Assembly: GCF_000827125.1 (NCBI RefSeq)
Contig: NZ_CP010311.1
Location: forward strand, 310,001 to 374,000
Reading direction: 5' to 3'
Source: Geoalkalibacter subterraneus
GTDB taxonomy: Bacteria > Desulfobacterota > Desulfuromonadia > Desulfuromonadales > Geoalkalibacteraceae
DNA: 64,000 nt
The stretch's first letter is position 1. Every line of letters starts with the position of its first letter. Positions 53,694-64,000 of this stretch are shown here, in pieces. Below the pieces are notes generated by a model. It was not told where the DNA came from. It ran no database searches and saw only the letters and a list, made by a program, of their open reading frames with translations. Made by a program: the position numbers and the translations under genes.

Positions 53694-54185
53694 ATGGCAC
53701 AGTCCCACATTGTCATGGTTGGCTTGCGGTATCTGGCGGCGTTTGTCCTGTTATGGGAAATCATTGCCGGGTGGTCATCCGGATCATGGGGCATGGGCAG
53801 TGTCGCTGTGCTGATTGCCACCGCAGTCGCCCTGTGTTTGCGTTCTAGAGAGGCTGGGCCGCTTCGGTGGAGTGGAGCCATTCGGTTCCTTCCCTATTTT
53901 TTTCTCCAGTCCGTTCGGGGTGGGGTAGACGTTGCTCGGCGCGCCTTCTCCCCCGGCATGCAGCTCGAGCCGCTGCTGGTGGAGCATCCCCTTTCTTTGC
54001 CCCCGGGTGCGGCACGACTTTTCCTGGTGAACGTGGTGAGCCTGCTGCCGGGAACGCTGGGGGCGGATGTGCGCAAAGACTGCCTGGTCGTGCATGCGCT
54101 GGATCGCTCTCTGGCCGGGGAGCTGGTGAACCTCGAGCAGAAGGTGGCGAGGCTTTTTGACGCTGACGGAGTGAATGCTCTCTGA
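53694..54185 (+). CDS. mrpE: Mrp antiporter subunit E
   Basis: A 163-residue MrpE/MnhE family membrane protein. Two or three N-terminal helices (VGLRYLAAFVLLWEIIAGWSS, VAVLIATAVALCL, FLPYFFLQSVRGGVDVARRA) are followed by the conserved GAARLFLVNVVSLLPGTLGADV and VVHALD segments. The frame is open from 53529, but ATG 53694 with GGAG before it gives the family-length protein. First gene of an eight-gene operon; 26 bp precede mrpF. Confidence 0.9.
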   Translation: MAQSHIVMVGLRYLAAFVLLWEIIAGWSSGSWGMGSVAVLIATAVALCLRSREAGPLRWSGAIRFLPYFFLQSVRGGVDVARRAFSPGMQLEPLLVEHPLSLPPGAARLFLVNVVSLLPGTLGADVRKDCLVVHALDRSLAGELVNLEQKVARLFDADGVNAL

Positions 54186-54211
54186 GTAACATCTGTGGAG
54201 GATTATCGTAG

Positions 54212-54499
54212 ATGGAGCCTTTGTGCCTGGCAATGGCGCTGATTCTGCTGCTGATCATTGTAGCGGGGTTGTGGCGGGTGTTTCAGGGGCCGACTGCCGC
54301 GGACCGCATGCTGGCGGCCCAGCTGTTCGGAACCACGGCCGTCGCGATCCTGCTGCTTCTGGGGCAGGCAGGCGGAGTGACGGCGCTGTGGGACGCGGCG
54401 CTGGTATTCGCCCTTCTCGGGGCTGTGGCGGCGGTGACCTTTGTCCGGCGCAGCTGGGCGCGGGAAGCGGATGCGGAAAAGGACAACGACGATGTTTGA
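54212..54499 (+). CDS. mrpF: Mrp antiporter subunit F
   Basis: A 95-residue protein with three membrane helices (ALILLLIIVAGLWRVF, LAAQLFGTTAVAILLLL, ALWDAALVFALLGAVAAVTFV) and the RVFQGPTAADRMLA loop typical of MrpF/MnhF. A charged tail (READAEKDNDDV) follows. The ATG follows GTGGAGGATT. Its end overlaps mrpG by 8 bases. Part of the Mrp cation/proton antiporter membrane complex. Confidence 0.9.
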   Translation: MEPLCLAMALILLLIIVAGLWRVFQGPTAADRMLAAQLFGTTAVAILLLLGQAGGVTALWDAALVFALLGAVAAVTFVRRSWAREADAEKDNDDV

Positions 54500-54791
54500 A
54501 TCTGCCCTGGCGACCCTGTTTTTTGCAGCCGCACTCTATTTTTTCCTGGCCGGAACCCTGGGGATGCTGCGTTTCCCTGATGTCTTCTGCCGCCTGCATG
54601 CCCTGACCAAGGCCGACAACCTCGGCCTGGGATTCACCGTTCTGGGGCTTATGATCCTCAGCGACAGCTGGCAGTCTGCGGCGCGGCTGCTGCTGACCTG
54701 GCTGCTGGTGATGCTCTCCGGCGCAACGGTTGCGCACCTGGTGTCGCGCAAGGCCCTTCGCGACGGCATCACCCCCTGGAGGAAGCCGTGA
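54492..54791 (+). CDS. mrpG: Mrp antiporter subunit G
   Basis: A 99-residue MrpG/MnhG protein with three helices and the signature GTLGMLRFPDVFCRLHALTKAD, then LGLGFTVLGLMIL. ATG 54492 follows AAGGA and overlaps the mrpF end; the frame is open earlier (54441) but that would lie within mrpF. The GTG start of the next gene overlaps its stop by four bases. Confidence 0.93.
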   Translation: MFESALATLFFAAALYFFLAGTLGMLRFPDVFCRLHALTKADNLGLGFTVLGLMILSDSWQSAARLLLTWLLVMLSGATVAHLVSRKALRDGITPWRKP

Positions 54792-55744
54792 CGCTGGTGG
54801 GTGCGCTCTTTGATCTGGTCCTGCTGCTGACCCTTTTATGGCTTGCCTGGCAGGTGCTGGCTTCGCCCGACCTGTTCAAAGCGGTGGTTCTGTTTATTTC
54901 ATTCGGTTTGCTGCTGGCGCTGGCCTGGGTGCGGCTCGATGCGCCCGATGTGGCCCTGGCCGAGGCGGCAATCGGTGCCGGAATCACCGGCGCCCTGTTC
55001 CTCGCTGCGTTAGGGCGTTTCGGGCATGATGAGCCCGGCGGCCGGCGGGGTCGGAAGAGCCTCGGGCGACATCTTGCGGCCCCGGTCCTGGTGGCGACCT
55101 TTCTGCTGATGCTTGGAACCATCATGCTGCGCTTTTTGCCCCGCCTGCCGAACGCCGGCGGTTTAAAGTCGGAGGTCATGGCCCATCTGCCCATGAGCGG
55201 GGTGACTCACCCGGTGACCGCGGTCCTGCTCGGTTTTCGAGCCTATGACACTCTGCTCGAACTCGGTGTTCTGCTGCTGGCGGTGGTGGCGATCCGGTCG
55301 ATTGACCTGGGCCCCCCGCCGGAAGATAACATCCCGGTCTCTCCCGCACAGAAGGGATTGAGCCGGATTCTGCTTCCGCTGATGGTATTGGTTTCAATCT
55401 ACCTGTTATGGCGTGGCGGGCATGCCCCGGGCGGTGCTTTCCAGGCGGGCGCTCTGTTGGGAGCGGGGCTGGTTCTGTATGTATTGAGCGGTGGCGCCCT
55501 GATCGCCGGGCCGGGCGGCCTCTACCTGCGCATCCTCATGGCCTGCGGGTTCGCTTTTTTTCTCACGGTGGCTGTCGCAGCCCTCCTGGTTGCGGGGATT
55601 CCATTTGTCTATCCGCCTGCAGGAGGCAAGAACCTGATCCTGCTGATCGAAGCGCTGGCCGGCGTTTCCATTGCGCTCACTCTGGCGCTGGCGGTGTTCG
55701 GCGGGCGCCTGGAAGAGGATGAGGGTGCGGGAGGCGGCTCATGA
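54788..55744 (+). CDS. fused MbhD/E-like and MrpB subunit
   Basis: A 318-residue polytopic protein. Residues 1-80 (LVLLLTLLWLAWQVLASPDLFKAV, LDAPDVALAEAAIGAGITGALF) match the DUF4040/MbhD part that normally forms the C-terminus of MrpA. A middle segment (VTHPVTAVLLGFRAYDTLLELGVLLLAVVAI) is MbhE-like. Residues about 185-310 (LMVLVSIYLLWRGGHAPGGAFQAGALLGAGLVLYVLSGG) are MrpB. So the C-terminal piece of MrpA is joined to MrpB instead of to MrpA. Starts GTG 54788 with GTGA overlap. Confidence 0.85.
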   Translation: MTLVGALFDLVLLLTLLWLAWQVLASPDLFKAVVLFISFGLLLALAWVRLDAPDVALAEAAIGAGITGALFLAALGRFGHDEPGGRRGRKSLGRHLAAPVLVATFLLMLGTIMLRFLPRLPNAGGLKSEVMAHLPMSGVTHPVTAVLLGFRAYDTLLELGVLLLAVVAIRSIDLGPPPEDNIPVSPAQKGLSRILLPLMVLVSIYLLWRGGHAPGGAFQAGALLGAGLVLYVLSGGALIAGPGGLYLRILMACGFAFFLTVAVAALLVAGIPFVYPPAGGKNLILLIEALAGVSIALTLALAVFGGRLEEDEGAGGGS

Positions 55745-56055
55745 ATACGGGACCCGGTTTCGTCATTGCCGGATTTCTGCTTTTTCTTCTGGGGGTTCAC
55801 GGGGTTTTCGTGCGTGAGCATCTGCTGCGCAAGATTCTTGCCGCCAATATCATGGGAAGCGGCGTTTTCATGGTCTTTCTCGCCCTGGGGCACGGCGGCA
55901 CGTCCTCTGCACCCGATCCCGTGCCGCAGGCGATGGTCCTGACCGGGATCGTGGTGGCAGTGGCGTTCTCCGCGGTGGCGGTGGTGCTGGCCGTTAGAAT
56001 CCAGCAGACTCATGGGCGGCCCTATCTCCCGCGCGGCGGGGAGGAAGAAAAGTGA
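55741..56055 (+). CDS. mrpC: Mrp antiporter subunit C (NuoK-like)
   Basis: A 104-residue NuoK/MrpC type protein with three helices (VIAGFLLFLLGVHGVFV, ILAANIMGSGVFMVFLAL, AMVLTGIVVAVAFSAVAVVLAVRI), the MGSGVF motif and the DPVPQAMVLTGIVV motif expected for the family. It starts ATGA over the previous stop and ends overlapped by the GTG of the next gene. Confidence 0.92.
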   Translation: MNTGPGFVIAGFLLFLLGVHGVFVREHLLRKILAANIMGSGVFMVFLALGHGGTSSAPDPVPQAMVLTGIVVAVAFSAVAVVLAVRIQQTHGRPYLPRGGEEEK

Positions 56056-57536
56056 GCGGCGTGCTGCATCACCCCTGGGCATTGTGGATGATTTTCCTGC
56101 CGCTGGCCGCTGCGGTTGCTGCGTTTCTGCTGCCGCGCCGCGCCGGCATGATCGGGATGGGCACGGCCCTGGCGATGCCGCTGCTGGCGGCGCTGGCTGC
56201 CTTCCATCTGTATGCGGTCGGCCCCCTGCAATTGACGGCCGGTGACTGGCCGCTGCCCCTGGGCATTGCATTGCGTCTCGACGGACTGGCGGCCATGATG
56301 CTGGTGACCTGTGCCGTGGTCGGCCTGGTGGTGAGCGTTTATGCTCAGGGGTATTTCCCTTCCCGGAGCCCCGGGCGGAACCGGACCGCGCATTTCTGGC
56401 CGCTGTGGCTTTTTTTGTGGGGCGCGGCGAGCGCCCTGTTCCTTTCTGCGGACCTGTTCAATCTCTATGTGACGCTGGAGATGGTGACGCTGGCCTCTGT
56501 CGCCCTGGCCGCACTGGAGGGGCGGCCAGCGGCACTGAGCGCTGCCATGCGTTACCTGCTGGTCGGCATGGCGGGGTCACTGTTTTATCTGCTCGGGGTG
56601 GCGCTGCTCTATGCGGCCTATGGGACGGTGGACCTGAGTCTGCTTGGCGAAGCCATGACCGCTAACGCTCAAAGCCGCGCCGCGATGGCCCTGATGGTGG
56701 GCGGCCTGTTGTTCAAGTCGGCGCTTTTCCCGATGCACTTCTGGCTGCCGCCGGCTCACTCCCAGGCGCCTGCCCCGGTGAGCGCGCTGCTATCGGCGCT
56801 GGTGGTCAAAACCTCCTATGTCATCATCCTGCGGTTATGGTTCGAGGTCTTTCCGGGAGTGGCATCACCTTTGGCGGGACATCTGCTCGGTGTCCTGGGG
56901 GCAACGGCGATTTTGTGGGGATCGCTGATGGCGCTGCGACAGGAGCGCTTGAAACTGCTGGTAGCCTATTCCACCGTAGCCCAGATCGGCTATCTCTTTC
57001 TGGTCTTCCCTCTGGCGAGCAGCGGCACGGCGGCCAGCGTCTGGGCCGGCGCCATCTTTTTCATACTGGCTCATGCCTGCGGCAAGGCCGCCATGTTCCT
57101 GGTGGCCGGGGCGATTCATCATACGGTGGGGCATGACCGAATCAACCACCTGGCCGGTGCCGGCGGTCCGCTGGGCGTGCTGGTGGTGATCTTTGCGCTG
57201 GCCTCGGTCACCATTATAGGACTGCCGCCCAGCGGCGGTTTTTTTGCCAAGTGGCTGCTGCTTGATGCGGCTATCGTGACCGGGCAGTGGGGATATGTCG
57301 TGGTCATGGCTTTTGGGACTCTGCTGGCGGCGGCCTATGTAGTGCGCGTTCTGGCCTGGGCTTTTCTTGATGTCGAGCGCACGCACCACGCAACCCTCCC
57401 CTGGGTGATGAAGTGGCCGCCGTTGGCGCTTTCGGTGGTTTCTCTGCTGCTGGGACTTGGTGCTTATGTGCCCGTGCTGCTCTCGTTGCTGCAGGCTCCC
57501 GTCGCCGGTGCCGTCCTCATAGGAGCGGGGCCATGA
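56052..57536 (+). CDS. mrpD: Mrp subunit D-like proton-conducting antiporter protein (first)
   Basis: A 494-residue member of the NuoL/M/N/MrpA/D family with about 14 helices. It has the proton-channel Glu in LYVTLEMVTLASVAL, the Lys/His helix ALFPMHFWLPPAHSQAPAPVSALLSALVVKTSYVI, LLVAYSTVAQIGYLF and a further KWLLLDAAI. GTG start with GTGA overlap to mrpC. This is the first of three such subunits in the operon. Confidence 0.9.
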   Translation: MSGVLHHPWALWMIFLPLAAAVAAFLLPRRAGMIGMGTALAMPLLAALAAFHLYAVGPLQLTAGDWPLPLGIALRLDGLAAMMLVTCAVVGLVVSVYAQGYFPSRSPGRNRTAHFWPLWLFLWGAASALFLSADLFNLYVTLEMVTLASVALAALEGRPAALSAAMRYLLVGMAGSLFYLLGVALLYAAYGTVDLSLLGEAMTANAQSRAAMALMVGGLLFKSALFPMHFWLPPAHSQAPAPVSALLSALVVKTSYVIILRLWFEVFPGVASPLAGHLLGVLGATAILWGSLMALRQERLKLLVAYSTVAQIGYLFLVFPLASSGTAASVWAGAIFFILAHACGKAAMFLVAGAIHHTVGHDRINHLAGAGGPLGVLVVIFALASVTIIGLPPSGGFFAKWLLLDAAIVTGQWGYVVVMAFGTLLAAAYVVRVLAWAFLDVERTHHATLPWVMKWPPLALSVVSLLLGLGAYVPVLLSLLQAPVAGAVLIGAGP

Positions 57537-59029
57537 ACGATTCACTGCTGTTGTTGGCCATTCTGTGCAGCTCTCTGGTGCCGGGACTGATCATTTTCGC
57601 CCTGCCGGAGCGAAGTCATCGCCTGCGCACCACCCTCAACATGGCGGGGGCGCTGCTGAAGCTGAGCCTGGTGGCGCTGCTGTTCATTCTGGTTTACCGG
57701 GGCCGCTTCCCCGAGCTGCGCATTGCTCTGCTGCCGGGAATGGAGCTGGCGCTGCATGCCGACTCGCTGTCGCTGCTTTTTCTCGGCCTGTCGGCCTTTC
57801 TGTGGTTTCTGACCACCGTGTATGCCATCGGCTACCTGGAAGGCTCTCCCCATCGAAGCCGCTTTTTCGGGTTCTTCAGCCTGTGTGTCAGCGCCACCAC
57901 CGGCATCGCCCTTGCCGGGGACCTGGTCACTTTTCTCATTTTTTACGAGATGCTGACCCTGTCTACCTTTCCGCTGGTGGTGCATCGCGGCACTCCCGAA
58001 GCCCTGAGCGCCGGACGCATTTACCTGGCCTATACCCTGAGCGGAGGCGTGGTGCTGCTGGTGGCCACGGTCTGGCTACGAACCCTTGTGGGCCCCCTGG
58101 ACTTCACCGTGTCTGGAATCCTGCCTGCTGCAGATCCTGCGCTCTATGGGGAGTTCAAAATCATCTTTTTTCTGCTGATCGCCGGGTTGGGCGTCAAGGC
58201 GGCGCTGGTCCCTTTCCATTCCTGGCTGCCCACCGCCATGGTCGCGCCCGCCCCGGTCAGCGCGCTGCTGCACGCGGTCGCGGTGGTCAAGGCGGGGGCT
58301 TTCGGCATCATGCGCGTGGTTTACGGCGTGTACGGCATCGAGTTTTGCGCCTCCCTCGAGGTGTTGGGACCGCTGGCATTCGTGGCGGCCTTTACCATCC
58401 TCTACGGTTCGCTCCGCGCCCTGGCGCAGGAGGACCTCAAGCGGCGGCTCGCCTTTTCCACGGTCAGCCAGGTTGCCTATATCACTCTCGGTCTGGCACT
58501 GCATGGCCCGCTGGCCACCATCGGCGGCCTGGTTCACCTGGTGCACCAGGGATTGATGAAGATCACCCTGTTTTTTGGAGCCGGAAATCTGGCTGAAACC
58601 CTCGGCATCCACAAGATCAGGGATATGGCGGGGGTGGGCCGTCGCATGCCCTGGACCATGGGCGCGTTTACCGTTTGCGCCCTGGGCATGATCGGCCTGC
58701 CGCCCACGGTGGGTTTTGTCACCAAATGGTACCTCTCGCTGGGGGCTCTGACCATCAATCAACCCTGGGTGGTGGTGTTGCTGATCACCAGCACTCTTCT
58801 CAATGCCGCTTATTTCCTGCCGATTCTGCGCACGGTCTGGTTCGATAAACCGCAGCGCCCGTGGCCGGAGAGCCCGCCTGATCACGGCGGGAAGGAAACG
58901 CGCTGGGCGCTTCTGCTGCCGCCCCTGGTGACGGCCGCGCTGGTGCTGCTGTTCGGCCTGCTGGCCGCTGCGCCTTTCAGCCCGCTGCAATGGGTCCGGT
59001 TGATTGCGGCACGGGAGTATGCGCCATGA
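57533..59029 (+). CDS. NuoM/MrpD-like proton-conducting antiporter protein (second)
   Basis: A 498-residue polytopic protein of the NuoM/N/MrpD family. ATG 57533 overlaps the previous stop. Landmarks: VTFLIFYEMLTLSTFPLVVH (channel Glu), GLGVKAALVPFHSWLPTAMVAPAPVSALLHAVAVVKAGAFG, LAFSTVSQVAYITLGLAL and TKWYLSLGAL. The PVSALLHAVAVVKAG signature is of the NuoM/L kind. It is probably the functional counterpart of the antiporter half of MrpA. Confidence 0.9.
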   Translation: MNDSLLLLAILCSSLVPGLIIFALPERSHRLRTTLNMAGALLKLSLVALLFILVYRGRFPELRIALLPGMELALHADSLSLLFLGLSAFLWFLTTVYAIGYLEGSPHRSRFFGFFSLCVSATTGIALAGDLVTFLIFYEMLTLSTFPLVVHRGTPEALSAGRIYLAYTLSGGVVLLVATVWLRTLVGPLDFTVSGILPAADPALYGEFKIIFFLLIAGLGVKAALVPFHSWLPTAMVAPAPVSALLHAVAVVKAGAFGIMRVVYGVYGIEFCASLEVLGPLAFVAAFTILYGSLRALAQEDLKRRLAFSTVSQVAYITLGLALHGPLATIGGLVHLVHQGLMKITLFFGAGNLAETLGIHKIRDMAGVGRRMPWTMGAFTVCALGMIGLPPTVGFVTKWYLSLGALTINQPWVVVLLITSTLLNAAYFLPILRTVWFDKPQRPWPESPPDHGGKETRWALLLPPLVTAALVLLFGLLAAAPFSPLQWVRLIAAREYAP

Positions 59030-60774
59030 CGACAGAGACTGCTTTGTATCAGGTACTGTTGGTGCTGACCCCTCTGGCTCCCCTTGTATTGTGTACTCTG
59101 CTCTGGTGGGAAGGAGCCAGGGACCGGCTGATTTCTCTTGTGCCCTGGGCAGCGCTGCCCGGCCTGTTGCTGGCCCTGCTGCCGGATGGGGGAAGCCGCA
59201 TCGGCCTGGATTGGCTGCTGCTTGGCGGACAGCTCGGCCTTGACGGGATGGGGCGCGTTTTTCTGCTGCTGACCGCCCTGCTGTGGATGTCCGCCGGCCT
59301 GCACCTGCGCCAGCTGCTCTCCGACGACTCCCATGCGCGGCGTTTCGCCATCTTCTTTCTGCTCGCCATGGGCGGCAACCTGGGGGTGGCGCTTTCCCTG
59401 GATATGCTGGGCTTTTATCTTTTTTTCGCCCTGATGAGTTTTTCCTCCTACGCCCTGGTGGTGCATGACGGGCGCGATTTCTCCCGCCGCGCCGGGCGGG
59501 TTTACCTGATTCTCGTGCTGGTGGGGGAGGTTCTGCTGTTCACCGCCCTGGTAATGCTGGCCCGTCACACCCCTTTTCTGCTGTTGAGCGAGGCCTCCAG
59601 TGCGCTCGCCGGCAGCGAGCAGCGAAACCTGATTCTGGCTATTCTGATTCCGGCTTTGGGGATCAAGATCGGCATGGTGCCGCTGCATTTCTGGCTGCCG
59701 CTGGCGCACCCGGCCGCCCCGGTGCCGGCCAGTGCGGTTCTGAGCGGCGCCATGATCAAGGCGGGCCTGCTGGGACTGGCGCGCCTGCTGCCGCTGGGGC
59801 AGGTGTCTTTGCCGGGATGGTCGGGAGGACTCATTATTGTCGGGCTGGTGATGGCCTATTACGGTGTCATTGTCGGCCTGCCGCAGCGTGAAGCCAAGAC
59901 GGTACTGGCCTATTCCAGCATCAGCCAGATGGGCTATGGCGTCATTGCCCTCGGGCTGGGCTTGGCGCAGCCCGCCGTCTGGCCGCAGCTGGCCCCGGTG
60001 CTGGCTTTTTATGCACTTCACCATGGCCTGGCCAAGGGGGCGCTTTTTCTCGGTGTCTCCATGGCGCCCGTTTCAGGCATGTCCGTCTGGCTGCGCAGGG
60101 TGGCGGTGGTGGGGCTGCTGTGGCCGGCGCTGACGCTGAGCGGGGCGCCCTTTACCAGCGGCGCCCAGGCCAAGGCCGCACTCAAGCCTTTTTTGAAGGA
60201 GATGCCTGCCTATGGGCCATTTTCCCTTTCGGCCCTTTTATCCTTTGCGGCTGTGGGCACTGCCCTGATCATGGTGCGTTTTCTGTTTCTGATGTATCGC
60301 AAACCCTCTGATCGTCCTTCGCCCGGTGCGGCCATGTGGGGCGGCTGGTTGCTGCTGCTGGCGGCGAGCATGGTCTGCGCCGTCGGCTGGTTTCCCGATC
60401 CCTGGCTGCACGCCGCGCTGCAGTCCGTTTCCATCGCGCCGGTCTCCGCCCTGTGGCCGCTGCTGCTTGCCGTGCTCGTTGCTGTTGCAGCCATGCGCCG
60501 GCTGCCGCCGTCTGTGAAAGAGGTTTTTTCTCCACCGCCAGGGGATGTGGGCGCTCTTGTCGAAAAGTTTATTTTGCGGGCGTATGACTCCTGTCGCAAG
60601 CTCTGCGGTCGGATTGGCGCTGGAAAATGCTGGGAATCGCTCCGCCTGCCGCGCGGCAGGTGGTGGTACCGGCTGGCGGTATACGAGGTGCTGCACGAGA
60701 CCGAACTGTCTCTGCGCCGATTTTCCATGGCGGGCGCAGTCTTTTTGTTTATACTTCTCCTCTTTCTTCTTTGA
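59026..60774 (+). CDS. NuoL/M/N-like proton-conducting antiporter protein (third)
   Basis: A 582-residue polytopic protein of the same superfamily. ATG 59026 overlaps the stop of the second subunit. Landmarks: LGFYLFFALMSFSSYALVVHDG (the channel Glu position appears to be Phe/Ala-rich, a possible loss), GIKIGMVPLHFWLPLAHPAAPVPASAVLSGAMIKAGLLG, VLAYSSISQMGYGVIAL. After the usual core it has a long C-terminal part (about 490-582) with soluble segment and a final helix (AGAVFLFILLLFLL). Last Mrp gene in the operon. Confidence 0.85.
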   Translation: MTTETALYQVLLVLTPLAPLVLCTLLWWEGARDRLISLVPWAALPGLLLALLPDGGSRIGLDWLLLGGQLGLDGMGRVFLLLTALLWMSAGLHLRQLLSDDSHARRFAIFFLLAMGGNLGVALSLDMLGFYLFFALMSFSSYALVVHDGRDFSRRAGRVYLILVLVGEVLLFTALVMLARHTPFLLLSEASSALAGSEQRNLILAILIPALGIKIGMVPLHFWLPLAHPAAPVPASAVLSGAMIKAGLLGLARLLPLGQVSLPGWSGGLIIVGLVMAYYGVIVGLPQREAKTVLAYSSISQMGYGVIALGLGLAQPAVWPQLAPVLAFYALHHGLAKGALFLGVSMAPVSGMSVWLRRVAVVGLLWPALTLSGAPFTSGAQAKAALKPFLKEMPAYGPFSLSALLSFAAVGTALIMVRFLFLMYRKPSDRPSPGAAMWGGWLLLLAASMVCAVGWFPDPWLHAALQSVSIAPVSALWPLLLAVLVAVAAMRRLPPSVKEVFSPPPGDVGALVEKFILRAYDSCRKLCGRIGAGKCWESLRLPRGRWWYRLAVYEVLHETELSLRRFSMAGAVFLFILLLFLL

Positions 60775-60795
60775 ATGGGAGAGGCTTTACTGCAA

Positions 60796-61398
60796 ATGAA
60801 TCACCGCAAAACGTTCCGCTTTATCTTCGTGCTCCTGGTGGGATTGGGTCTCGGTCTTTTTTCTTCGAACACTGCCTTAGCATCGCAGCCGAACACTCCA
60901 TGGAGTCTGATCGGATTCACTTCCATCTACACTCCCGATCGATTGAAAGACATATTCACCAATCGCCATTCCTACCAGGACTCCTACCTGGTGGCGCTGG
61001 CCCTGAATCACCGGTTTGCGCGTCCAAACAGATCGCTCGGCTGGGAGTGGGAGGTGCAGGGTGTTCGCCATTTCGGCCGCCAGAACCACTTTGAAACCAA
61101 CGCGCTGATTCTGGCCCGCTGGTACCGCTTCCCCTGGAATGATTGGGTCGCAACCACCTTCGCGGTGGGAGAAGGGCTCTCCTACGCATTCCGCAAGCCG
61201 CGTCTCGAGCGAAAAGATCACGATGACCCTTCGCAGCTTCTCAACTATCTGCTGTTTGAGCTGACCCTGAGCCCCGAGGAGCAGAGCCGTTGGTATTTCA
61301 GTACCCGCATCCACCACCGTTCCGGGGTGTTTGGTCTGTTCAACGGTGTGCGCGGCGGCTCCAATTTTATCGGGATGGGGGTCGGCTACCGCTTTTGA
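60796..61398 (+). CDS. outer-membrane beta-barrel, lipid A deacylase/PagL-like
   Basis: A 200-residue exported protein with a signal peptide (MNHRKTFRFIFVLLVGLGLG, then SNTALA cleavage). The mature part alternates as a beta barrel and ends in GMGVGYRF with C-terminal Phe, typical of outer-membrane insertion. The late HHRSGVFGLFNGVRGG segment carries a His-x-Ser pattern like the active site of PagL/acyloxyacyl hydrolase proteins. That would mean removal of an acyl chain from lipid A; this is a moderate inference. ATG 60796 follows GGGAGAGG; ATG 60775 directly after the Mrp stop is less likely. Confidence 0.65.
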   Translation: MNHRKTFRFIFVLLVGLGLGLFSSNTALASQPNTPWSLIGFTSIYTPDRLKDIFTNRHSYQDSYLVALALNHRFARPNRSLGWEWEVQGVRHFGRQNHFETNALILARWYRFPWNDWVATTFAVGEGLSYAFRKPRLERKDHDDPSQLLNYLLFELTLSPEEQSRWYFSTRIHHRSGVFGLFNGVRGGSNFIGMGVGYRF

Positions 61399-61562
61399 TT
61401 CAAGATCAATCCGATTCAAGTTGAAGCCTTCTTTTCTTTGTTTATACTTTCATGGGAGAGTTGCCTCATGGAGAATGCGGTTTTGCTTATGAAAGTAACT
61501 TGCAGGCTCGGTCTTTCCTTGCAGAGGAGAAGCCGGGCCGTTTTGATTGGAAGGAGGATGCA

Positions 61563-64000
61563 ATGGCCGATAAAAAGAAACTTTCTCAGGACACGCAAAA
61601 TACGCTCTGGCATGCTCGCACAGTTGAGGATGTCCGACAGACGCTGAATGTCCCGGAGGAGGGGCTCTCCGACCAGGAGGCCGCAGAGCGCCTTGAGCGC
61701 TACGGCCCCAACCAGTTGCCGGCCCCGCAGAGGCGTGGGCCTCTCAAGCGGTTTTTCGTCCAGTTCCACAATCTCTTGATCTATGTCCTGCTGGGCGCGG
61801 CGATGGTGACCGCTCTGATGGGGCACTGGCTCGATTTCGGCGTGATTCTCGGCGTGGTGGTGGTCAATGCTCTGATCGGTTTTATCCAGGAGGGCAAGGC
61901 GGAGAAGGCCCTGGATTCCATTCGCGACATGCTGTCGCTGCACGCATATGTGGAACGTGACGGACATCGCCGCGAGGTTGCCGCCGAAGAGCTGGTCCCC
62001 GGAGACCTGGTTTTGCTGCAGGCCGGCGACAAGGTGCCCGCCGACATGCGGTTGATCAGGGTCAAGGATCTGCGGGTGGATGAAGCCCTTCTTACCGGCG
62101 AGTCCCAGGCGGTGGCCAAACAGGTCGACCCGGTGGAGGAGGATGCCGTGCTGGGCGACCGCCTGAGTATGGCTTACTCCGGCACGGTGGTGACCTACGG
62201 CCGGGCCTCCGGGGTGGTGGTGGCCACCGGCAAGCAGACGGAAATCGGCCGTATCAGTGAGATGCTGACAACGGTCGAAACAATCAGCACGCCCCTGTTG
62301 CGCAAGATGGATGTGTTCGCACGCCGGCTCACGGGAGCCATCATTTTGCTGGGCGTCGGCGCCTTTGCGTTCGGGATGCTGGCACGCGACTACACGATGG
62401 TGGAAATGTTCCTGGCGACGGTGGGGTTGATCGTTGCCGCTATCCCGGAGGGGCTGCCCGCCATCATCACGATCACCCTGGCTATCGGCGTACAGCGTAT
62501 GGCGCGGCGCAAGGCCATTATCCGCCGCCTACCGGCGGTGGAAACCCTGGGCGCGGTAACGGTGATCTGCTCCGATAAAACAGGGACGTTGACCCGTAAC
62601 GAAATGATGGTGCGCGATGTCGTATGCGCCGACGCCTCGTTTGAGGTCGAGGGCGACGGCTATGATCCTCATGGTGAGGTTCTGCGTGACGGCCAATCGG
62701 TCGAAGTGAGCGATTACCCGCTGCTTGGCGACCTGGCTCGTGTCGGCTTGTTGTGCAACGACTCGACGCTGGATACCGACGACAATGAGCAGTGGAGGAT
62801 TCATGGCGATCCTACCGAGGGAGCGTTGCTCACCCTGGGGCTTAAGCTCGGGCTTGACGCTGAGCGCGAAGCGGATGATCTGCCGCGCACCGACGCGATT
62901 CCCTTCGAGTCCGAGCACCGTTTTATGGCAACGCTGCATCACGATCATGAGGGCAATGCCTTTATCTTCCTCAAAGGGGCGCCGGAGCGCGTGCTGGAGC
63001 TGTGCCGCCGGCAGCGACAGGGTGATGAAGAGGTGGAGCTTGATGAGGATCTCTGGCGCGATGCTGCCGAGAAGCTTGCCGGTAACGGCCGGCGAGTTCT
63101 GGCTCTGGCCTGGCGGCAGACCGATTCCGATCGGCACGATCTCGCCTTTGATGACATCAGCGAGTTTACCCTGCTGGGGCTGGTGGGAATTACCGATCCA
63201 CCGCGCCCGGAGGCAATTGAGGCAGTCAAACGCTGTCGCACGGCAGGCATCGGCGTGAAGATGATTACCGGCGACCACGCCCGCACCGCCTTGGCCATCG
63301 GCCGGGATATGGGGATCGGCGATGGCGAGCGGGTCGTGACGGGCGCCGAAATCGAGGATGCCGCCGACGAGCGTTTATCCGAATGGGTGCGCGAGGTTGA
63401 TGTATTTGCCCGCACCAGTCCTGAGCACAAACTGCGTCTGGTGCGCGCCCTGCAGGCGAACGGCGAGATCTCCGCCATGACCGGAGACGGCGTCAACGAC
63501 GCCCCCGCCCTCAAGCGCGCCGACGTGGGGGTGGCCATGGGGATCAAGGGCACCGAGGTTTCCAAGGAGGCCTCTGAGATGGTTCTTGCCGATGACAACT
63601 TCGCCTCCATTGTCGACGCCGTGGAGGAGGGGCGCACGGTTTACGACAATATTCGCAAGTCCATCACCTTCATTCTGCCCACCAACGGCGGCGAGGCTTT
63701 TGTGCTGCTGGCGGCGATCGCCCTTGGACGGGTGATGCCGATTACGCCGGTGCAGATCCTGTGGATCAACATGATCACGGCGGTCACCCTGGCTTTGTCG
63801 CTGGCCTTCGAGCCGCCGGAGAAGGATATCATGACGCGTCCTCCCCGTCCGCCGAAGGAGCCGATCCTTTCCCTGTTTCTGGGGTGGCGTATCCTGTACG
63901 TCTCCCTGATCCTGCTGGCGGGCACTTTCGGGCTGTACATCTACGAGCGCGAAACCGGGGCCGATATCGAAGTGGCGCGCACCGTGGCGGTCAACACCCT
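61563..64000 (+). CDS. P2-type cation-transporting ATPase, C-terminus outside window
   Basis: P-type ATPase of the SERCA/PMCA-like group, 812 codons present and cut by the right edge; about 90 residues are probably missing. Features in order: N-terminal cation-ATPase domain, TGES near 178 (actuator), membrane motif PEGLP near 295, phosphorylation site DKTGTLT with Asp338, KGAPE nucleotide-binding segment, and the hinge TGDGVNDAPALKRADVGVAMG near 640. PEGLP and overall similarity fit Ca2+ or Na+/K+-type pumps rather than heavy-metal pumps, since no CPC motif is seen. ATG 61563 follows AAGGAGG. The ion is inferred. Confidence 0.95.
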   Translation, partial: MADKKKLSQDTQNTLWHARTVEDVRQTLNVPEEGLSDQEAAERLERYGPNQLPAPQRRGPLKRFFVQFHNLLIYVLLGAAMVTALMGHWLDFGVILGVVVVNALIGFIQEGKAEKALDSIRDMLSLHAYVERDGHRREVAAEELVPGDLVLLQAGDKVPADMRLIRVKDLRVDEALLTGESQAVAKQVDPVEEDAVLGDRLSMAYSGTVVTYGRASGVVVATGKQTEIGRISEMLTTVETISTPLLRKMDVFARRLTGAIILLGVGAFAFGMLARDYTMVEMFLATVGLIVAAIPEGLPAIITITLAIGVQRMARRKAIIRRLPAVETLGAVTVICSDKTGTLTRNEMMVRDVVCADASFEVEGDGYDPHGEVLRDGQSVEVSDYPLLGDLARVGLLCNDSTLDTDDNEQWRIHGDPTEGALLTLGLKLGLDAEREADDLPRTDAIPFESEHRFMATLHHDHEGNAFIFLKGAPERVLELCRRQRQGDEEVELDEDLWRDAAEKLAGNGRRVLALAWRQTDSDRHDLAFDDISEFTLLGLVGITDPPRPEAIEAVKRCRTAGIGVKMITGDHARTALAIGRDMGIGDGERVVTGAEIEDAADERLSEWVREVDVFARTSPEHKLRLVRALQANGEISAMTGDGVNDAPALKRADVGVAMGIKGTEVSKEASEMVLADDNFASIVDAVEEGRTVYDNIRKSITFILPTNGGEAFVLLAAIALGRVMPITPVQILWINMITAVTLALSLAFEPPEKDIMTRPPRPPKEPILSLFLGWRILYVSLILLAGTFGLYIYERETGADIEVARTVAVNT

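Follow-up and report, generated by a model that had tools for sequence, protein, structure and literature searches.

Whether an operon that joins the small subunits of an Mrp antiporter to three large proteins of the NuoL/M/N kind encodes an antiporter in its own right, or the membrane arm of a redox complex whose catalytic part lies elsewhere, is the question raised by a locus in Geoalkalibacter subterraneus (assembly GCF_000827125.1, contig NZ_CP010311.1). The window analysed here, the whole stretch of 64,000 nucleotides from position 310,001 to 374,000 of the forward strand, carries eight genes at window positions 53694-60774 on the + strand, in the order mrpE, mrpF, mrpG, an MbhD-MbhE-MrpB fusion, mrpC and three large antiporter subunits, here called D1, D2 and D3. 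The operon probably encodes a stand-alone Mrp of the group 3 type, a cation/proton antiporter driven by the proton motive force without a redox module. This reading is supported because all Mrp subunit types but MrpA are present, the gene order recurs in 72 of 90 loci and the acids of the cation site are kept; because D1 and D2 keep the Glu and Lys of the proton path, D3 resembles a terminal subunit with K214 and E168, and none of the complex I- or hydrogenase-type catalytic genes queried is linked to the operon in 97 loci; and because NhaA adjoins the operon in one relative (locus L048) and, judged by likeness and count, in a second (L049), and related group 3 Mrp systems work, or have been read, as Na+/H+ antiporters.

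An operon without mrpA

The genes of the operon, in window coordinates, are as follows.

53694-54185, +, mrpE (Pfam MNHE, 1.5e-21)
54212-54499, +, mrpF (Pfam MrpF_PhaF, 2.9e-10)
54492-54791, +, mrpG (Pfam PhaG_MnhG_YufB, 2.1e-23; NCBIfam TIGR01300, 65.3 bits against a cut-off of 63.1)
54788-55744, +, MbhD-MbhE-MrpB fusion, 318 residues (Pfam MbhD, 6.2e-19; MnhB, 1.4e-13)
55741-56055, +, mrpC, NuoK/MbhG-like (Pfam Oxidored_q2, 1e-19)
56052-57536, +, D1, MrpD/MbhH-like antiporter subunit, 494 residues (Proton_antipo_M, 1.5e-52; MbhH 6cfw_H, 1.4e-53)
57533-59029, +, D2, antiporter subunit forming a separate clade in the tree, 498 residues (Proton_antipo_M, 1.1e-56)
59026-60774, +, D3, antiporter subunit, 582 residues (Proton_antipo_M, 6.9e-37; predicted fold and residue counts below)

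All Pfam matches clear their gathering scores, and their E-values range between 2.9e-10 and 1.1e-56. Among the NCBIfam matches listed, only that of mrpG exceeds its cut-off, those below being PRK12507 for the fusion and PRK08375 and PRK07234 for D2. In a sequence search of solved structures the start of the fusion resembles MbhD and its second half MbsE. A gap of 26 bases separates mrpE from mrpF, mrpF and mrpG overlap by eight bases (ATGTTTGA), and each of the five junctions further downstream overlaps by exactly four; a promoter scan upstream of mrpE returned no site on the + strand.

Coordinates and Pfam matches bear out the gene content and order given in the initial annotation (E-F-G, then an MbhD/E-MrpB fusion, C and three NuoL/M/N-like proteins), as well as its statement that no hydrogenase or dehydrogenase gene follows, since downstream lie an open reading frame (ORF) of 207 residues and then a P-type cation ATPase. 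The four-base overlaps that it described after mrpF hold at the five later junctions but not between mrpF and mrpG. The likeness that it drew to the membrane arm of Mbh complexes also stands, with no MrpA, an MbhD domain fused to MrpB, and D1 grouping with MbhH and MrpD.

Published Mrp systems have been split into three groups, of which group 3 is marked by irregular gene order (PMC5703873); elsewhere group 3 denotes systems with no mrpA and one or more copies of mrpD (PMC8415708). The two papers thus define the group differently, and the operon agrees with both, having an irregular order, no mrpA and more than one mrpD-type gene. The gene set of the Mrp/CPA3 family (E, F, G, B, C and an MrpD-type subunit) is present together; the single protein of antiporter domain and MbhD/E tail that constitutes MrpA in groups 1 and 2 is absent, as is the linked hydrogenase-type redox module of membrane-bound hydrogenase (MBH) and membrane-bound sulfane reductase (MBS) systems, to the extent that the 97 loci contain no Nuo/Hyf catalytic subunit.

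Phylogeny and predicted fold of the large subunits

A phylogeny, which the initial annotation had proposed as a check, was run by maximum likelihood on 70 rows, using 13 loci picked by hand from 80 named ones (the same 13 as in the residue comparison of MrpF and the clusters). It places D1 with MrpD and MbhH, and D2 and D3 in clades of their own. The D1 rows form one clade (100/100), grouped (92/91) with MbhH, MrpD, NuoN and MbsH, as well as with one protein from a second Mrp-like cluster that the genome contains; the D2 clade is joined by another protein of that cluster (100/99); and the D3 clade (100/100) sits on a long stem, with D2 and D3 as sisters at 92/88, under the starred level. On this tree D1 corresponds to MrpD, and MrpA groups with neither D2 nor D3. 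That D2 or D3 might be MrpA in disguise gains no backing from the tree, in which the MrpA rows join NuoL, at a fork that is itself weak (93/57). A sequence search of solved structures gave MbhH as the top match for each of D1, D2 and D3. As the deep forks are weak and the stem of D3 is long, the deeper branching is unsure, and the 'evolutionary intermediate' suggested by the initial annotation is not readable from the tree.

The model of D3 was built from 70 sequences, 69 of 74 available relatives being used, and has a mean predicted local distance difference test score (pLDDT) of 90.1 and a predicted template modelling score (pTM) of 0.89, with residues 531-582 at pLDDT 50-67. VIA-align gave Z-scores of 39.0-41.0 to E. 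coli NuoL chains and of up to 41.5 to another complex I chain, and of 39.1 (7d3u_A), 39.1 (7qru_A), 38.3 (9a6h_A) and 37.5 (6z16_A) to MrpA; E. coli NuoL was aligned to the model up to residues 561-583. D3 is thus predicted to fold like the terminal subunits NuoL and ND5 and the N-domain of MrpA, and its probable place is the distal end of the complex. The lateral helix of NuoL presumably begins near residue 530; in D3, helix 507-529 would be the start of a short lateral arm, with residues 569-581 forming the last helix after it. The arm that marks a terminal subunit is accordingly seen in part: the fold and the start of the C-terminal arm align, residues 531-582, including the last transmembrane (TM) helix, are modelled at low confidence, the arm is shorter than that of NuoL, and the sequence tree places D3 apart.

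Residues of the cation and proton paths

Residue counts for the cation-side subunits and for D3 take in rows above score floors of 50 (E), 40 (F), 50 (G), 40 (MbhD), 60 (EB), 60 (C) and 300 (D3) bits, and omit locus L014, which repeats the window. The acids of the cation site are kept in every row: the MbhD Glu (E59) in 78 of 78 rows, the MbhE Asp and Glu (D154 and E158) in 79 of 79 each, and the MrpB acid in all 79, present as Glu (E288) instead of Asp. MrpE retains P119 and H134, the equivalents of P114 and H131, in all 77 rows, and the equivalent of MrpF Asp29 (D31 in the window) is found in 73 of 76 rows, two more having Glu.

In a separate count of the TM5 Glu and of the Lys of the proton path, rows below 300 (D1), 500 (D2) or 350 (D3) bits were dropped. 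The TM5 Glu is present in 72 of 72 rows of D1 and 74 of 74 of D2, three Lys being nearly always kept in both, and in the 70-row alignment all 54 rows outside D3 carry Glu at this position, or in one case Asp instead. D3 has no Glu there in any of 97 rows (A135 in the window; A 76, T 11, S 5, G 3, V 2). Its TM6 acid, E168, aligns with Asp178 of E. coli NuoL and is found in 97 of 97 rows; K214, the equivalent of NuoL K229, is Lys in 96 and Arg in one; the TM8 Lys is absent in six; and the position of NuoL R175 is L, I, V or M in all 97. At TM6, D3 is NuoL-like and not MrpA-like, since the three MrpA rows carry Gly there. NuoL in complex I holds a double ion pair, K229-D178 and R175-E144, the first measured at 3.3 Å in one structure (PMC13324432) and also reported elsewhere (PMC9271201). 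Judged by alignment, D3 keeps the first pair as K214/E168 and is without both partners of the second.

By analogy with solved Mrp, MBH and complex I structures, on which the proposed subunit arrangement, ion, direction and stoichiometry are all modelled, the complex would extend along the membrane from D3, the most distant subunit, through D2, D1, MrpC, MbhD/MbhE and MrpB to MrpF, MrpG and MrpE at the cation end. Protons would enter via up to three antiporter subunits in series and pass along Lys/acid pairs until they reach the acids of the MbhD/MbhE/MrpB part; there the cation would be expelled. The role in the cell would be pH and ion homeostasis.

Distribution of the gene order

Of 136 genomes of the order, 19 have a match to D3 at E ≤1e-30, and in 15, the G. 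subterraneus genome among them, it exceeds 330 bits; of the other 14 in this set, 11 carry the complete set of eight gene types, and contig ends truncate the remaining three. From a scan of named genomes, in which at least 585 stretches held a relative in the wide sense (at least 590 being examined), the best 80 loci were kept, and these include Pseudomonadota, Desulfobacterota, Campylobacterota, Myxococcota, Verrucomicrobia, Kiritimatiellota, Gemmatimonadetes, Anaerolineales, Thermomicrobiaceae and Aeromicrobium. One uniform test was applied to 97 loci, the window's own among them, of which 90 have a D2 above 500 bits. The full order E-F-G-MbhD-MbhE/B-C-D1-D2-D3 is found in 72 of the 90, with MbhD and B in one frame in 24 and separate in 48; given this recurrence, the order is not due to chance, and the layout is, by its gene content, a widespread group 3 Mrp.

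Thirteen of the 18 loci without the full order begin at a contig end (L038, L046, L047, L056, L058, L061, L064, L081, L082, L091, L103, L111 and L129); L046 and L056 are one contig, deposited as a Desulfuromonadales metagenome-assembled genome and counted twice where both pass. Two Aeromicrobium loci (L118 and L122) have mrpE last, in the order F-G-DB-C-D1-D2-D3-E, and L064 seems to be likewise. D3 precedes D1 in L133, the mrpC candidate of L132 falls below the score floor, and L104 has no MbhD or B above the floors and weak matches to E, F, G and C. Some loci also bear signs of additional Mrp genes: at L104:341-11638 a C-D1-D2-D3 set, with no MbhD or B of its own seen, lies immediately downstream of an ordinary A-to-G Mrp cluster, the group 3 operon is preceded by partial Mrp genes in L039 and L054, and two consecutive copies of D3 end the operon in L087 and L123.

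A Rhodobacteraceae plasmid carries the eight genes in the same order as the operon, annotated as antiporter subunit E, pH regulation protein F, subunit G, a DUF4040 protein, a hypothetical protein (where the operon has mrpC), 'oxidoreductase', subunit D family and 'complex I'. The initial annotation took close relatives annotated and tested as ordinary Mrp, with this order, to be a refutation; half of this applies, in that some genes of the plasmid are annotated as antiporter genes, and no functional test of the layout was found.

Search for partners and genome setting

Partners were sought with phmmer (E ≤1e-6), using 15 queries, drawn from E. coli Nuo/Hyf and the genome's own Hyf-like proteins, among the ORFs of the 97 loci, which, contigs permitting, extend about 4 kb upstream of mrpE and as much as 10 kb beyond D3. 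No catalytic subunit of complex I or hydrogenase was found in these loci, the query set including no sulfane reductase of its own and no other dehydrogenase types; the only matches were ferredoxin-like ORFs of 107 residues in L067, L106 and L115, 3-5 kb off and on the opposite strand. The module docking with a redox partner that the initial annotation envisaged thus fails to gain support, the complex I and Hyf-like clusters of the genome being self-equipped. A scan of neighbouring ORFs of 110-700 residues, picked by length alone, covered 121 of 134 at higher coordinates and 108 of 129 at lower ones, the sides being set by coordinate and thus swapped for operons on the minus strand. No family recurs among these 229 ORFs, as judged from the 25 families most often seen out of 148 and of 108: the most frequent is Usp (4/121 on one side and 4/108 on the other), followed by CBS (4), BCCT (3), TrkA_N (3), NhaA (2) and Na_H_Exchanger (2). 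NhaA adjoins mrpE in L048, and in L049 too, judged by likeness and by the count of two. These neighbours agree, though weakly, with a role in ion and stress homeostasis.

In the genome, which measures 3.7 Mb on two contigs and is 99.99% complete, the Proton_antipo_M genes number 11 and fall into four groups: complex I, the eight-gene operon, the second Mrp-like cluster mentioned above and one Hyf-like cluster. Only two MbhD domains occur genome-wide, in the operon's fusion and in the second Mrp-like cluster; as both are accounted for, the genome has no MrpA with an MbhD-type tail. The second cluster (L013:6707-14442; G000:C1:74706-82441) comprises E, F, G, MbhD, MbhE, B, C and two large subunits, then an ORF of 86 residues with no Pfam match and a third large subunit, in which Asn replaces the TM7 Lys. 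The Hyf-like cluster (L012:6170-13497; G000:C1:51169-58496) has a HyfG-like subunit that matches Complex1_49kDa/30kDa only and is without a CxxC motif, of which E. coli HyfG has two; it is probably a hydrogenase-related complex without a Ni site.

Directly after D3, the ORF of 207 residues (window 60775-61398) has no Pfam match and is one that we take to resemble an outer-membrane lipid A deacylase; relatives of it adjoin D3 in L039, L040 and L041. The P-type cation ATPase follows at 61452-64000 and continues past the window end, and ORFs matching it lie near the operon in six of 14 relatives of the order (L038, L041 and L048-L051), those of L050 and L051 being weak and partial.

Alternative explanations

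That the operon encodes a membrane arm docking a soluble hydrogenase or dehydrogenase encoded elsewhere could be argued from its MbhD-type domain, from the MbhH-like D1, from MbhH being the closest solved sequence to all three large proteins, and from the presence of three large subunits, as in complex I. Set against this are the lack of a Nuo/Hyf-type catalytic gene within the scope of the partner search, the absence of a recurrent family among the neighbours listed, where even Usp is rare, and the fact that both the complex I and the Hyf-like cluster of the genome own their antiporter subunits, so that such docking appears highly improbable. Inorganic carbon uptake of the DabAB/MpsAB kind is suggested by DabB, itself a member of the Proton_antipo_M family. 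A group 3 Mrp locus of Nitrospira also contains bicA (PMC7784846). The genome, however, yields no DabA (PF10070) in a search that was positive in two of 14 control genomes, and MrpE, MrpF and MrpG are present, leaving this explanation with hardly any credibility.

The stand-alone antiporter has observations of its own to answer, and these weigh against it as it is put here. The equivalent of MrpF Asp35 (Q37 in the window) is Q in 66 rows, L in 5, I in 2, V in 2 and M in 1, and is acidic in none of 76, although five of five solved MrpF relatives have Asp there and the change D35L inactivated the Mrp of A. flavithermus, in which this Asp lies on the proposed Na+ path (PMC7419157). The equivalent of MrpG P86 (A78 in the window) is Pro in one of 78 rows and A, S or T in 77, which is weak evidence, since the MrpG of Dietzia also has no Pro there. 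In D3, the exit Asp of NuoL (D400) is matched by one Asp and three Glu in 97 rows and is thus not kept; with the usual TM5 Glu gone too, D3 may not conduct protons. Foldseek ranked MrpA (7qru_A) first for the D3 model and placed MrpD chains at ranks 3 and 8, so that taking D3 for a terminal subunit depends in part on the longer alignment. The literature searched, outside which most subscription papers fell, contained no transport assay of a three-large-subunit or eight-gene cluster and no mention of these residue changes.

As the essential Asp35 is never acidic, the cation entrance must differ, on the evidence of the alignments, from that of tested Mrp. The operon could then be an Mrp-type exchanger for a cation other than Na+ (K+, Ca2+ or another), or one whose cation entry is rewired, the altered MrpF gate being the ground for either, a possibility of some substance though still unlikely. 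Mrp substrates do vary, the group 1 Mrp of T. roseum exchanging Ca2+ and not monovalent cations (PMC5703873), but its MrpF keeps the Asp, so that D35 alone is no predictor of Ca2+ transport. Moreover, all remaining cation-site acids are kept, and the position varies across Mrp, with Asn in the second Mrp-like cluster and Glu in the group 1 MrpF of L104, so that its change is not directly informative on the ion; Asp35 is a residue of the solved Mrp members, not a defining criterion of the Mrp/CPA3 family. A bolder and rather doubtful proposal is a clade-wide redesign of Mrp, in which D3 would be a NuoL-type terminal proton channel working on just the TM7 Lys/TM6 acid half of the double ion pair of NuoL, with the essential MrpF Asp lost at the cation entrance, giving a redox-free machine of the three-channel length of complex I. 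Were this true, more protons would pass per cation than in ordinary Mrp, or another ion would be moved.

Comparison with known systems

For the stand-alone group 3 antiporter, the nearest counterparts include described systems with three or more large subunits, layouts that are already in print. Microbacterium sp. TS-1 has a group 3 Mrp (mrpFGBCDDAE; PMC5703873) whose order is that of the Aeromicrobium loci L118 and L122, if D3 corresponds to the gene labelled A. By description, TS-1 and Nitrospira share with the operon E/F/G, B, C and three large antiporter-like genes in irregular order; the window differs from TS-1 in having mrpE first and no MrpA, where TS-1 labels one large gene mrpA. In the haloalkalitolerant Ca. 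Nitrospira alkalitolerans, mrpD is followed by two NuoM/NuoL-like genes, and the group 3 Mrp has been read from the genome as a Na+/H+ antiporter; its locus is described as mrpA-G plus two extra genes, whereas the operon is without MrpA (PMC7784846). Aphanothece halophytica has a group 3 Mrp with two mrpD genes, whose Na+/H+ antiport has been shown in E. coli (PMC5703873); as described, mrpCD1D2EFGAB is irregular with more than one mrpD, like the operon, and differs in order and in a named mrpA. The stand-alone Mrp of P. furiosus, EFGBB'CD, has neither MrpA nor an energy-input module and is assigned to group 3, and its deletion has been studied for the response to pH (PMC8415708); by description its order is alike, but B and B' are separate and it has one large subunit where the operon has three.

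Further afield, the MBH and MBS arms of P. furiosus (6cfw, 6u8y) share the MbhD-type domain and the MbsE-like MbhE-MrpB part, whereas the operon has no redox module, has three large subunits and replaces the MrpF Asp. Group 1 and 2 Mrp (A. flavithermus 6z16, B. pseudofirmus 7qru, Dietzia 7d3u) share subunits E, F, G, B and C, along with most residues of the cation site; the operon departs from them in having no MrpA, D3 only folding like its N-domain, in its extra antiporter subunit, and in the loss of MrpF D35 and the D3 TM5 Glu. The Ca2+ antiporter of T. roseum was considered as a sharer of the eight-gene layout and rejected, being an ordinary A-to-G cluster. With NuoL of complex I, D3 has in common the terminal-subunit fold, the start of a lateral arm, the TM6 acid and the TM7 Lys, but it is without equivalents of E144, R175 and D400, has a shorter arm and is phylogenetically separate. 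New here is a family-wide combination: a terminal-type D3 with only half the charge pairs of NuoL, alongside an MrpF without its essential Asp. For annotation, the lesson is that three NuoL/M/N-like genes following mrpC need not mean complex I; for bioenergetics, three antiporter subunits in a row provide a natural redox-free comparison for complex I, one that could reveal the ion pair gating the terminal channel and any dependence of the proton:cation stoichiometry on the number of antiporter subunits.

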